Shown: positions 16,539-20,422 of the stretch, piece by piece | How positions within the stretch are numbered: the stretch's first letter is position 1 | How the letters are laid out: each line of letters opens with the position of its first letter | Source: a virus | Strand: one strand, 5' to 3' | DNA length: 23,750 nt | IMG/VR virus record: IMGVR_UViG_3300017763_000192 | Coordinates: 1-23,750 of that record | The notes under the pieces: generated by a model | What the model saw: the letters and a program-made list of their open reading frames with translations, nothing else | Databases searched by the model: none | What the model was told of the DNA's origin: nothing | Program-made: the position numbers and the translations under genes

Positions 16539-16955
16539 ATGGAATTATATAAAATACAGTTTTTAGTAGAAAATTATTTTGGTTATAAAATAAATATCAG
16601 ATGCAGACAGAGGCATTTGGTAGATGCCAGAAAAATATATTTTGGACTTTGCAGAGATTTTACTAGATATGGTTTAGCTGTAATGGGCAAAACATTAAAC
16701 AGAGATCATGCTACTGCTTTGCATAATATTAGAAGCTGTAAGGATTTAAGACAAACAGATCCAGATTTTAATAGAAAATATATAGCTTTGTATAAGCAGG
16801 TAAATGCTTTAAAAGCAAATAACTGGATTCCAAAAAAAATAATTATACCAAAAGTAATTCATCCAGGAAGATTTATATATGGGACAAAGAAATCCATTCG
16901 AGAAGTATTTAACAAAAGAAGACAAATTACAAAACAGCGTGATGTCTTACATTAA
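16539..16955 (+). CDS. stand-alone DnaA domain IV-like DNA-binding protein, 138 aa
   Basis: Residues about 23-65 follow the DnaA C-terminal domain: RQRHLVDARKIYFGLCRD as the long helix, GLAVMGKTLN as the turn region, and RDHATALHNIR (55-65), matching the DnaA signature RDHTTVLHA. In DnaA this helix-turn-helix binds the DnaA box. No AAA+ ATPase domain is present, so this is only the DNA-binding module, as found in various phage proteins. The C-terminal 70 residues are basic and not recognised. It lies among replication genes and overlaps the VRR-NUC gene by 77 bases. A role in origin binding, or in competing with host DnaA, is inference. Confidence 0.8.
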   Translation: MELYKIQFLVENYFGYKINIRCRQRHLVDARKIYFGLCRDFTRYGLAVMGKTLNRDHATALHNIRSCKDLRQTDPDFNRKYIALYKQVNALKANNWIPKKIIIPKVIHPGRFIYGTKKSIREVFNKRRQITKQRDVLH

Positions 16956-17504: not shown

Positions 17505-18230
17505 ATGAAACCAAATTACTATGCTATAATACCAGCTGAGGTTAGGTATGATGAAAAACTATCGCCTAACGCTAAATTACTTTTTGGCGAGATAACTGCT
17601 TTATCAAATAAAAAAGGTTATTCCTGGGCATCTAATAAATATTTTTCAGAGTTGTATGATGTAGATAAAAAAACTGTTTCTAGATGGGTAAAGCAGCTAG
17701 AGGATTTAAACTATATATCTTCTGTTATAGAATACGATAAAGAAACTAAAAGAGTAGTAAAAAGAACTATAAAAATTAATAGCTCCTACCCTATGGACAA
17801 AAATGTGGGGGGGGGACAAAAAGATCCCCAGGGTGGGGACAAAAATGTCCAGGTTAATATATATAGTAATAATAATAATAATATAAAAAATAATAACGCC
17901 ACTTTTAAAAAAGTGTCTGATTTTGATAAAAAGTATGTTACTGCTTATGATCATATCAAAGTGTTATTTGAAAATAGATACCAGCCAAAAACAACTCTGC
18001 AGAAAATAAACTGGCTTAATGTTATACGCTTATGCGATACTAAAGATGATGTAAATCCCAGACAGCTTTACTGGATATGTAAAAAGGCAGTGGATGATGA
18101 ATTTTGGTCAACTAACTTTTTATCTATAGCAGGAATAAGAGAAAAAAAGCAAGGGGTTTCTAAGTTAGATAGATTTATTAAAAAATTTGGAGGTAAAGAA
18201 TTTGATATACTAGCTGATGATAATAAATAA
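17505..18230 (+). CDS. HTH replication initiator / helicase-loader-like protein, 241 aa
   Basis: The N-terminal 92 residues (YYAIIPAEVRYDEKLSPNAK at about 5-24, WASNKYFSELYDVDKKTVSRW at about 41-61) are a winged helix of the HTH_36 type found at the start of phage replication proteins. A Gly/Asn-rich linker (about 96-132) is followed by a helical C-terminal domain (about 135-235, including LYWICKKAVDDEFWSTNF), which in such proteins often interacts with helicase. The linker is encoded by iteron-like repeats and a long AT tract (see 17795-17896), as in the lambda O gene. The gene overlaps the next one by 14 bases. Function from domain layout and context. Confidence 0.75.
   Translation: MKPNYYAIIPAEVRYDEKLSPNAKLLFGEITALSNKKGYSWASNKYFSELYDVDKKTVSRWVKQLEDLNYISSVIEYDKETKRVVKRTIKINSSYPMDKNVGGGQKDPQGGDKNVQVNIYSNNNNNIKNNNATFKKVSDFDKKYVTAYDHIKVLFENRYQPKTTLQKINWLNVIRLCDTKDDVNPRQLYWICKKAVDDEFWSTNFLSIAGIREKKQGVSKLDRFIKKFGGKEFDILADDNK
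17795..17896 (+). other. candidate replication origin: iteron-like repeats plus AT-rich tract inside the initiator gene
   Basis: GGACAAAAATGT occurs exactly at 17795-17806 and 17837-17848, with a variant GGACAAAAAGAT at 17814-17825. The third copy extends to the inverted repeat GGACA-AAAA-TGTCC (17837-17850). An AT tract of 43 bases with a single G (17854-17896) follows immediately. Repeats followed by an easily melted AT stretch, inside the linker of an HTH initiator gene, is the arrangement of the lambda origin within O. No experimental support is possible here, and repeated DKNV codons could also explain the repeats. Confidence 0.5.
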
Positions 18231-18738
18231 TAAATACATATTAACGACATTAGAACAGAAGATAGTAGAGATCACTGGAAAAGCTAGACAAAAAAACAAA
18301 GAATTAACAGGTATAAACGGAAAAGGTGCTGTCGCCAATAATAACGAATACCTCCACAATAATATTATCGGTTTTGGAGCTGAATTTATATTTTGTAAGC
18401 ATTATAACCTCCATTGTGATTTTTATATTGGTAACACTTCTAAAATCAAAGGTACTGATGTATATGATGCAACCTGGAATGGTATATCCATAGATGTAAA
18501 GGTAACTGAAAAGGATTTGCCGCTAATGACTCCAGCATTTTCAAAATCTGATGTGGGGGGGTTTGCTTTTTTTCATTGTAAATATCCAGAGTTTATATTT
18601 AAAGGATTTGCTACTAATGATCAGTTATTTCAAAAAGAAAATATTAAAAAAGTAAAAGTCGAATCTTATGTTTTAGAACTAAAAAATTTGCTATCAGAAT
18701 CAGAATTTCTATTTTTAAACAAATTAAACAAACTATAA
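18217..18738 (+). CDS. PD-(D/E)XK-like nuclease, putative, 173 aa
   Basis: The visible signature is GFGAEFIFCKHYNLHCDF (about 52-69, Glu56), GTDVYDATWNG (79-89, Asp81) and SIDVKVTEKD (91-100, Asp93-x-Lys95), the E...D...D-x-K order of restriction-endonuclease-like folds. The C-terminal part (GGFAFFHCKYPEFIFKGF) looks like continuing core strands. The exact family is not recognised. It sits between initiator and primase-helicase genes, so a role in replication or recombination is more likely than restriction. It starts inside the initiator gene (14-base overlap). Confidence 0.58.
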   Translation: MIINNKYILTTLEQKIVEITGKARQKNKELTGINGKGAVANNNEYLHNNIIGFGAEFIFCKHYNLHCDFYIGNTSKIKGTDVYDATWNGISIDVKVTEKDLPLMTPAFSKSDVGGFAFFHCKYPEFIFKGFATNDQLFQKENIKKVKVESYVLELKNLLSESEFLFLNKLNKL

Positions 18739-18739
18739 A

Positions 18740-20422
18740 ATGAATTATAATGAATTTATAAATATAGGTATTACTCCAAAAGGTAATGCCATAGAGCAAA
18801 AGGTAATCTGTCCACAATGCTCGCACACTAGAAAAAATAAAAAAGATCCCTGCTTATCTATAAATTTAGATAAAGGCGTTTATAATTGTCACAACTGCGG
18901 ATGGAGTGGAAATGTAAATTTTAAACCAAAAAAAGAATTTGTAAAACCTCCAGAGGCAAAAACAAATTTGTCAGAAAAAACTATAAAATGGTTTAATAAA
19001 AGAGGTATTACAGAAGCTACTTTAGCGCATTGGAAAATAGGCGAATCGATAGAATACTTTCCTCAAGCTCGTAAAGAAAGAAATGCTATAAACTTTAATT
19101 ATTTCAGAGAAGGTGAACTCATAAACTGTAAATATAGAGATGGACAAAAAAACTTTAAAATGGTTTCTGGAGCTGAGCTTATTTTTTATGGTCTAGATTC
19201 TATAAATGAAATGTCTACTATTTATATAGTAGAAGGAGAAATGGATGCTTTGTCACTGCATGAAGCTGGTATATATTCTGTATGCTCAGTTCCTAATGGC
19301 GCTTCTAAAGGAAATCAGCGCTTAGATTACTTAGATAACTGCTGGGAATATTTTAAAGACAAAAAAGAAATTATTTTATGTACCGATAATGATCAGCCAG
19401 GATTATCTCTCAGAAACGAACTCGCTAGAAGGTTCGGACAATATCGCTGTAAATATGTAGAATTTGGCGATTTTAAGGACGCTAATGAGGTTTTAATTGA
19501 AAAAGGTGCTGAAGTACTAAGAAACATTTTAAAGACCTCAAAGCACTTTCCACTAGAGGGCGTAGTAAATGTTAATGATATATGGAAGGATGTATTAAAT
19601 TATAATGAAAATGGTATAAAAAACTATTCTGTAGGTTTAGGAGATAGCGATGATTATTTTAAAATTGATTTTGAGGGTTCTTGGTCAGTTGTTACTGGTA
19701 TTCCAAACTCTGGTAAATCAGACGTAGTAGATCAAATAGCTTGTAATATGGCTGTAAATTATAGACATAGAACAGCTTTTTTTGCTCCAGAATCATTTCC
19801 ATATGAAGGTCATATTAAAAGATTAGCCAATAAACTTAATGAGCGTATTTGTACTAATGAAGATTTAAATAATACTAAAGATTTTATTGAAGAGCATTTC
19901 TATTTTGTTAAAATTGATTTAGATAATTTAACTTTAGATGGCATACTAGAGGCGTTTAGAGATTTGGTGTTTCAAAAAGGCGTTAATCTTTTAGTAATTG
20001 ATCCCTGGAATATGCTTGACCATTCAGCTCAAAGAGATCACTCCTATATAGGGATTATGCTTTCTAAGATTACTCAGTTTTGCCAGCAGTCAAAAACTCA
20101 TCTTTTTCTAGTGGCGCATCCTAGAAAAATGTCTATTAGTGAATCTGGTATTTACCAAGTTCCAACTCCTTATGATATTTCTGGATCTAGTGACTTTTTT
20201 AATAAGGCATTTAATTGTGTTACAGTATACAGATCATTAGGCGAGATAACTAAATATAAATCTGATGCTGTTCAGATGCATATACAAAAAGTAAAGCGCA
20301 AAGAAAATGGAAGCCAGGGAATGTTCACTGTTGCTCCAGATTTTAAGGGTGGGGGGGTGTATAAATCAATAGATGAGAAAAAACAAAGATTTACAGTAGT
20401 TCATGATAAAGTACCTTTTTAA
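18740..20422 (+). CDS. bifunctional primase-helicase, T7 gp4/Twinkle-like, 560 aa
   Basis: Synthesises primers and unwinds the fork. Domain order: an N-terminal zinc finger with Cys24-x2-Cys27 and Cys50-x2-Cys53; a TOPRIM primase core with IVEGEMDALSLHEAG (about 164-178) and the acidic CTDNDQPG (Asp216, Asp218); then a RecA-like DnaB-type helicase with Walker A GIPNSGKS (320-327), FFAPESFP (about 350-357), Walker B LLVIDPWN (Asp421) and HLFLVAHPRK (about 454-463). The length and full set of motifs fit T7 gp4-like proteins and suggest a functional enzyme. It lies directly after the initiator and nuclease genes and before the packaging genes. Confidence 0.93.
   Translation: MNYNEFINIGITPKGNAIEQKVICPQCSHTRKNKKDPCLSINLDKGVYNCHNCGWSGNVNFKPKKEFVKPPEAKTNLSEKTIKWFNKRGITEATLAHWKIGESIEYFPQARKERNAINFNYFREGELINCKYRDGQKNFKMVSGAELIFYGLDSINEMSTIYIVEGEMDALSLHEAGIYSVCSVPNGASKGNQRLDYLDNCWEYFKDKKEIILCTDNDQPGLSLRNELARRFGQYRCKYVEFGDFKDANEVLIEKGAEVLRNILKTSKHFPLEGVVNVNDIWKDVLNYNENGIKNYSVGLGDSDDYFKIDFEGSWSVVTGIPNSGKSDVVDQIACNMAVNYRHRTAFFAPESFPYEGHIKRLANKLNERICTNEDLNNTKDFIEEHFYFVKIDLDNLTLDGILEAFRDLVFQKGVNLLVIDPWNMLDHSAQRDHSYIGIMLSKITQFCQQSKTHLFLVAHPRKMSISESGIYQVPTPYDISGSSDFFNKAFNCVTVYRSLGEITKYKSDAVQMHIQKVKRKENGSQGMFTVAPDFKGGGVYKSIDEKKQRFTVVHDKVPF

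Follow-up and report, generated by a model that had tools for sequence, protein, structure and literature searches.

In phage lambda, the ori occupies the central part of the initiator gene and consists of imperfect inverted-repeat iterons with an internal run of A, followed by an AT-rich region (PMC7466680). Initiators of the RepA_N type (pSK41, pTZ2162 and PLE RepA) have a winged-helix N-terminus and semi-palindromic direct repeats that converge on a poly-A tract (PMC7145576), and in pSK41 the origin is central in the rep gene and the linker is dispensable (PMC5703833). The staphylococcal plasmid pPR9 is reported to correspond to a pSK41-type plasmid in which about 500 bp, holding the origin and the RepA_N domain, are replaced by a segment with a pfam13730 HTH, and a pPR9 mini-replicon with this HTH replicated autonomously and was compatible with pSK41 (PMC5703833).

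The viral DNA analysed here (the window, 23,750 bases) contains a gene (Table 1) whose product matches PF13730 (HTH_36; E 3.5e-14, 52.8 bits against a Pfam gathering score of 25) and PHROG families for replication initiation (lowest E 4e-29). Passing the PF13730 threshold, matching phage initiator families and having a primase-helicase nearby, it belongs with the HTH_36 phage replication initiators. An AlphaFold2 model (pLDDT 76.8) places a wing after the recognition helix, and the C-terminal domain is presumed to be the replisome-recruiting part. The preliminary description had reported three copies of GGACAAAAA in this gene, starting at 17795, 17814 and 17837, and all three lie exactly there: GGACAAAAATGT occurs as identical 12-mers at 17795–17806 and 17837–17848, with the variant GGACAAAAAGAT at 17814. 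The inverted repeat GGACA-AAAA-TGTCC that it described is perfect at 17837–17850; iterons 1 and 2 have one imperfect arm each, a point against the origin reading, and several relatives read GGACAAAAATGTCC at the position of iteron 1. Successive copies start 19 and 23 bp apart. Allowing up to two mismatches, the 14-mer GGACAAAAATGTCC occurs within the 23,750 bases at the three iteron sites only, and no further copies were found in the window or in a 31.5-kb relative. The 43-base tract with one G that was said to follow the repeats directly is likewise present, and it is the single most AT-rich 43-mer in the window. Together, iterons and AT tract are exactly the DNA encoding the predicted disordered linker. 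With regular repeats inside an initiator gene and an adjoining AT-rich element, the locus has the sequence features of an intragenic iteron origin.

Table 1 Features of the initiator locus and its downstream helicase gene (window coordinates)
Feature	Coordinates	Strand	Basis or description
Replication initiator gene (241 aa)	17505–18230	+	HTH_36 winged helix, disordered linker, helical C-terminal domain
HTH_36 DNA-binding domain, residues 18–71	17556–17717	+	Pfam match
Recognition helix, residues 55–67	17667–17705	+	DSSP of AlphaFold2 model
Recognition-helix codons K56, T57, R60	17670–17672, 17673–17675, 17682–17684	+	Top arm-covarying columns
Disordered linker, residues 94–132	17784–17900	+	pLDDT <50 over these residues
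Iteron 1, GGACAAAAATGTGG	17795–17808	+	Frame GAC AAA AAT, DKNV
Iteron 2, GGACAAAAAGATCC	17814–17827	+	Other frame, GGA CAA AAA, GQKD
Iteron 3, GGACAAAAATGTCC	17837–17850	+	Perfect inverted repeat, frame DKNV
AT tract, candidate DNA-unwinding element	17854–17896	+	42/43 A or T; one G, no C
Helical C-terminal domain, about residues 136–235	17911–18209	+	AlphaFold2 model; weak PHROG O-like and DnaD-like matches
Primase-helicase	18740–20422	+	phrog_239, E 8.6e-85; Toprim and AAA_25 domains

The candidate origin is of the in-gene iteron type already known from lambda, pSK41 and pPR9. The lambda-like layout proposed in the preliminary description holds, in that inverted-repeat iterons with an A run adjoin an AT-rich tract within the initiator gene in both cases (PMC7466680). 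However, the lambda iterons are 19 bp long and those of the window type 14–16 bp, and what is encoded downstream is a phage primase-helicase, not a P-type loader. The protein also differs from lambda O: PF04492 (Phage_rep_O) is absent from its Pfam matches at E 0.1, and its O-like PHROG matches are weak only. Refining the lambda reading, we find the closest precedents, in the form of the iterons and the way cassettes behave, in the HTH_36 replicon pPR9 and in RepA_N plasmids (pSK41). The window protein shares with RepA_N proteins a winged-helix N-terminus and the in-gene origin layout, and GGACA-AAAA-TGTCC corresponds to their inverted-repeat iterons converging on a poly-A tract (PMC7145576), but it belongs to another Pfam family, PF06970 (RepA_N) being absent among its Pfam matches. 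With pPR9 it has in common an HTH_36-type N-terminus, linker repeats (spaced by 45 bp in the pPR9 rep gene) and a following AT tract, which in pPR9 is Asn-rich; as in the phage cassettes described below, helix and origin were exchanged there as one segment. Unlike the window, pPR9 is a plasmid with a weak HTH match (19.8 bits), a pSK41-type C-terminal domain and different iteron arms. Searches beyond these families gave little: a PDB sequence search with the initiator found no initiator, just weak MarR-type matches, and a fold search with the model returned generic winged helices including the plasmid initiators 4pt7, 4pql and 5kbj, none at E <0.001. The latter reflect ordinary winged-helix likeness, and we count them against the origin reading.

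Repeats within a coding sequence could reflect selection on the protein, with DKNV-type linker motifs as the selected unit and DNA likeness as a by-product, and copies 1 and 3 do encode the same DKNV (GAC AAA AAT GTN). However, copy 2 is out of frame with them, reading GGA CAA AAA GAT (GQKD), a shift absent from the preliminary description, and spacings are mostly not multiples of three. In the initiator linkers of relatives, GGACAAAAATGTCC is found in all three frames, even within one gene, so that the same DNA gives DKNV, GQKCP or TKMS, in a linker predicted to be disordered. Codon choice points the same way. GAC encodes the Asp of DK[NI]V in 27 of 27 homology-sampled cases, against 155 of 443 Asp codons in the HTH domain; in 11 close relatives, Gly in the repeats is GGA in 11/11 cases (7/74 elsewhere) and Val is GTC or GTG in 21/21 (29/120 elsewhere). 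In no relative was DKNV kept while synonymous changes removed the 12-mers, the pattern named at the outset as one that would speak against an origin. The shifted frame of copy 2 and the unvarying Asp codon show the repeats to be DNA elements and not protein repeats; frame and codons already refute protein-level selection, to which we assign a negligible probability.

The same arrangement recurs in related genes. Two close copies of GGACAAAAATGTCC occur in 59 viral stretches, against 2 for an equally composed control palindrome pair, so the repeats exceed chance; L222, one of the two control hits, again proves to be such an initiator gene, with arms of its own. In 31 of the 59 stretches the pair lies in an open reading frame (ORF) matching the HTH model, and reading of the others adds at least another dozen initiator genes, including one for a RepA_N protein (L110). 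A simple 15-mer repeat score compared with synonymous shuffles discriminated poorly in AT-rich genes: 39 of 98 genes scored above all 60 of their shuffles, whereas 2 of 60 shuffles scored above the window gene, whose best seed fell in AT-rich sequence. Iterons were therefore called with a palindrome-aware method. Across the 60 non-redundant genes with called iterons, arrays of 2–6 copies lie regularly spaced and deep in the coding region, with 99 of 139 intervals measuring 22 or 23 bp; 51 of the genes use two or three reading frames. The family-wide iteron is an inverted repeat with 5–6-bp arms around a central A4, and its arms vary (GGACA, TTAAAG, TACAAG, TTAACA, TTGACG, CCCAAG and others). 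In 57 of the 60, the iterons are followed by a tract with less GC than the remaining gene (mean GC 0.20 versus 0.38).

The iteron also appears in other settings. It lies mid-protein in genes for a RepA_N protein (L110), a DnaA_N-containing protein (L114) and two unclassified proteins (L094, L100), a distribution that suggests that it is shared or convergent across initiator families. Five stretches (L065, L068, L080, L093 and L098) carry two copies of GGACAAAAATGTCC 31 bp apart outside any initiator gene; in all of these except L065 the pair precedes a small ORF that looks HicA-like, where it is perhaps an operator with the same inverted repeat. Within the AT tract of the window, TAG/TAA triplets at 17866–17890 resemble a DnaA-trio, and several Firmicutes relatives (L254, L258, L262, L264 and L265) share AATACAAGTATTAATA or a near variant in theirs. 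This may be a second conserved origin element.

As the preliminary description had proposed to check by aligning homologues, the repeat sequence covaries with the HTH and the spacing is kept. Residue 60 ranks first of 95 columns for association with the arms (partial r 0.82 over all genes, controlling for the rest of the domain), followed by 56 and 57; the three residues share a face of the recognition helix, and the covariation of helix residues 55–66 with the arms exceeds that in 2,000 of 2,000 permutations. Because part of this set had been fetched by motif, the analysis was repeated on genes from protein similarity alone, where residue 60 still came first (partial r 0.66) and the associations were 0.78 between residue 60 and half-site position 5 and 0.44 between residue 56 and position 3. 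In the final table of 77 genes (three of 80 were dropped as their called half-sites, without G or C, were AT-tract artefacts), R60 goes with C at position 5 in 44 of 44 genes and C5 occurs without R60 in 0 of 33, counts that depend partly on ancestry, a dependence that the following pair test lessens and does not remove. Between closest independent pairs, position 5 differs in 22 of 27 when residue 60 differs and in 1 of 32 when it is the same. For 54 further non-redundant genes, predictions were fixed before their linkers were read, and they were right for position 5 in 8 of 9 cases and for position 3 in 12 of 14; the strict caller could call iterons in only 20 of the 54, which we count against our explanation. 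A natural variant, L275 (R60N), has VDKKTVSNW in place of VDKKTVSRW and the half-site GTAATA in place of GGACA. Arginine to guanine is the usual Arg–Gua contact, and here R60 would face the G opposite C5. These data argue strongly for binding of the iterons by the HTH. The rule relating residues to bases (60 to position 5, 56 to position 3) appears to be new: judged by title or abstract, none of 16 open-access papers that mention HTH_36 is about such a code, and a literature search for the letters of the iteron motif found no paper.

Helix and iterons also move together. In two groups of genes (L021/L016/L023 and L028/L031/L032), identity is 88–96% across the initial 34 codons, the AT tract and the part encoding the C-terminus, but falls to 46–61% across the HTH and iterons. 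Conversely, L035 and L040 have the HTH and iterons in common and not the C-terminal domain. Helix and iterons are swapped together as a cassette.

Given the initiator-family matches, the coincidence of repeats and linker, the frame and codon evidence, the covariation, the frozen predictions, the cassettes, the helicase or loader genes close to the initiator in named phages and the pPR9 precedent, we take the iterons to be in-gene binding sites, and consider it highly probable that they are the sites of the gene's own HTH_36 dimer and form, with the AT tract, an in-gene replication origin. An HTH_36 dimer would bind each iteron (half-site NGGACA around the central A4) and read its arms through the recognition-helix residues K56, T57 and R60. 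The three iterons, about two helical turns apart and with the AT tract directly after them, would constitute the origin; three bound dimers could deform the DNA, putting the AT tract under strain until it opens, and the primase-helicase that the phage encodes downstream would be recruited by the C-terminal domain. In this scheme the dimeric state and stoichiometry, melting, helicase recruitment and firing are inferred.

The covariation speaks to binding and not to firing, and the iterons might instead serve mainly for control, as an in-gene operator, roadblock or incompatibility site, with replication starting elsewhere. A winged-helix dimer on a palindromic site is a typical form of repressor, and the initiator is similar in fold to MarR-type regulators. 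However, the sites lie deep in the coding region in regular arrays of 2–6 copies, have an AT tract behind them in 57 of 60 genes and no extra copies in the window or the 31.5-kb relative, and the precedents in lambda, pSK41 and pPR9 are origins; we regard a mainly regulatory role as unlikely. The exchange of cassettes around the site could also be read as the mark of a packaging or recombination site (pac/cos or a hot spot of module exchange). This is very improbable, as the sites fit the initiator's own helix and not a terminase or recombinase, and are found in plasmids as well as in a wide variety of phages.

The surroundings of the putative origin include further replication genes. The primase-helicase, the second gene downstream of the initiator, is likely to be the client loaded at the origin, and the named phages examined mostly have a DnaB helicase or DnaC-type loader one or two genes after the initiator. 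Between initiator and primase-helicase, a 173-aa ORF (18217–18738) without a family match may, by eye, encode a PD-(D/E)XK nuclease. Other neighbours are a Sak annealing protein and an exonuclease VIII-like nuclease, and a few genes 5′ of the initiator a 138-aa protein (16539–16955) has a DnaA DNA-binding domain (PF08299, E 1.2e-8). DnaA boxes are not in excess near the repeats or in the window (16 observed versus 37 expected), and Rfam and tRNA searches found nothing. Cumulative GC skew rises steadily without inflection in the window and three relatives and is uninformative as an origin test, because coding lies almost wholly on one strand; one of these relatives carries a 91-bp terminal direct repeat and is probably complete. 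With its length of 31,981 bases and a 91-bp terminal direct repeat, the relative G004 (L598, L599) is probably a complete circular genome, which suggests a genome size of about 32 kb for the phage group. Relatives of the terminase and primase-helicase in Bacteroides, Cellulophaga and Flavobacterium phages suggest a host among the Bacteroidota.

Beyond this phage, the same layout is readable in many uncultured phage genes, so that origins can be located from sequence. Each gene carries a DNA-binding helix together with its sites, a natural data set for the winged-helix recognition code, and across about 80 related genes one or two initiator residues predict letters of the docking site; close natural variants (L275 with R60N, and staphylococcal V56/E56 pairs) make the code testable. 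We think it likely that the DNA specificity of HTH_36 initiators is written into their own genes in this way, with a simple residue-to-base code holding across phages of several bacterial phyla and with helix–iteron cassettes exchanged independently of the AT tract and the C-terminal domain. A phage lineage could thereby change its origin specificity and plausibly escape incompatibility or an origin-targeting defence.
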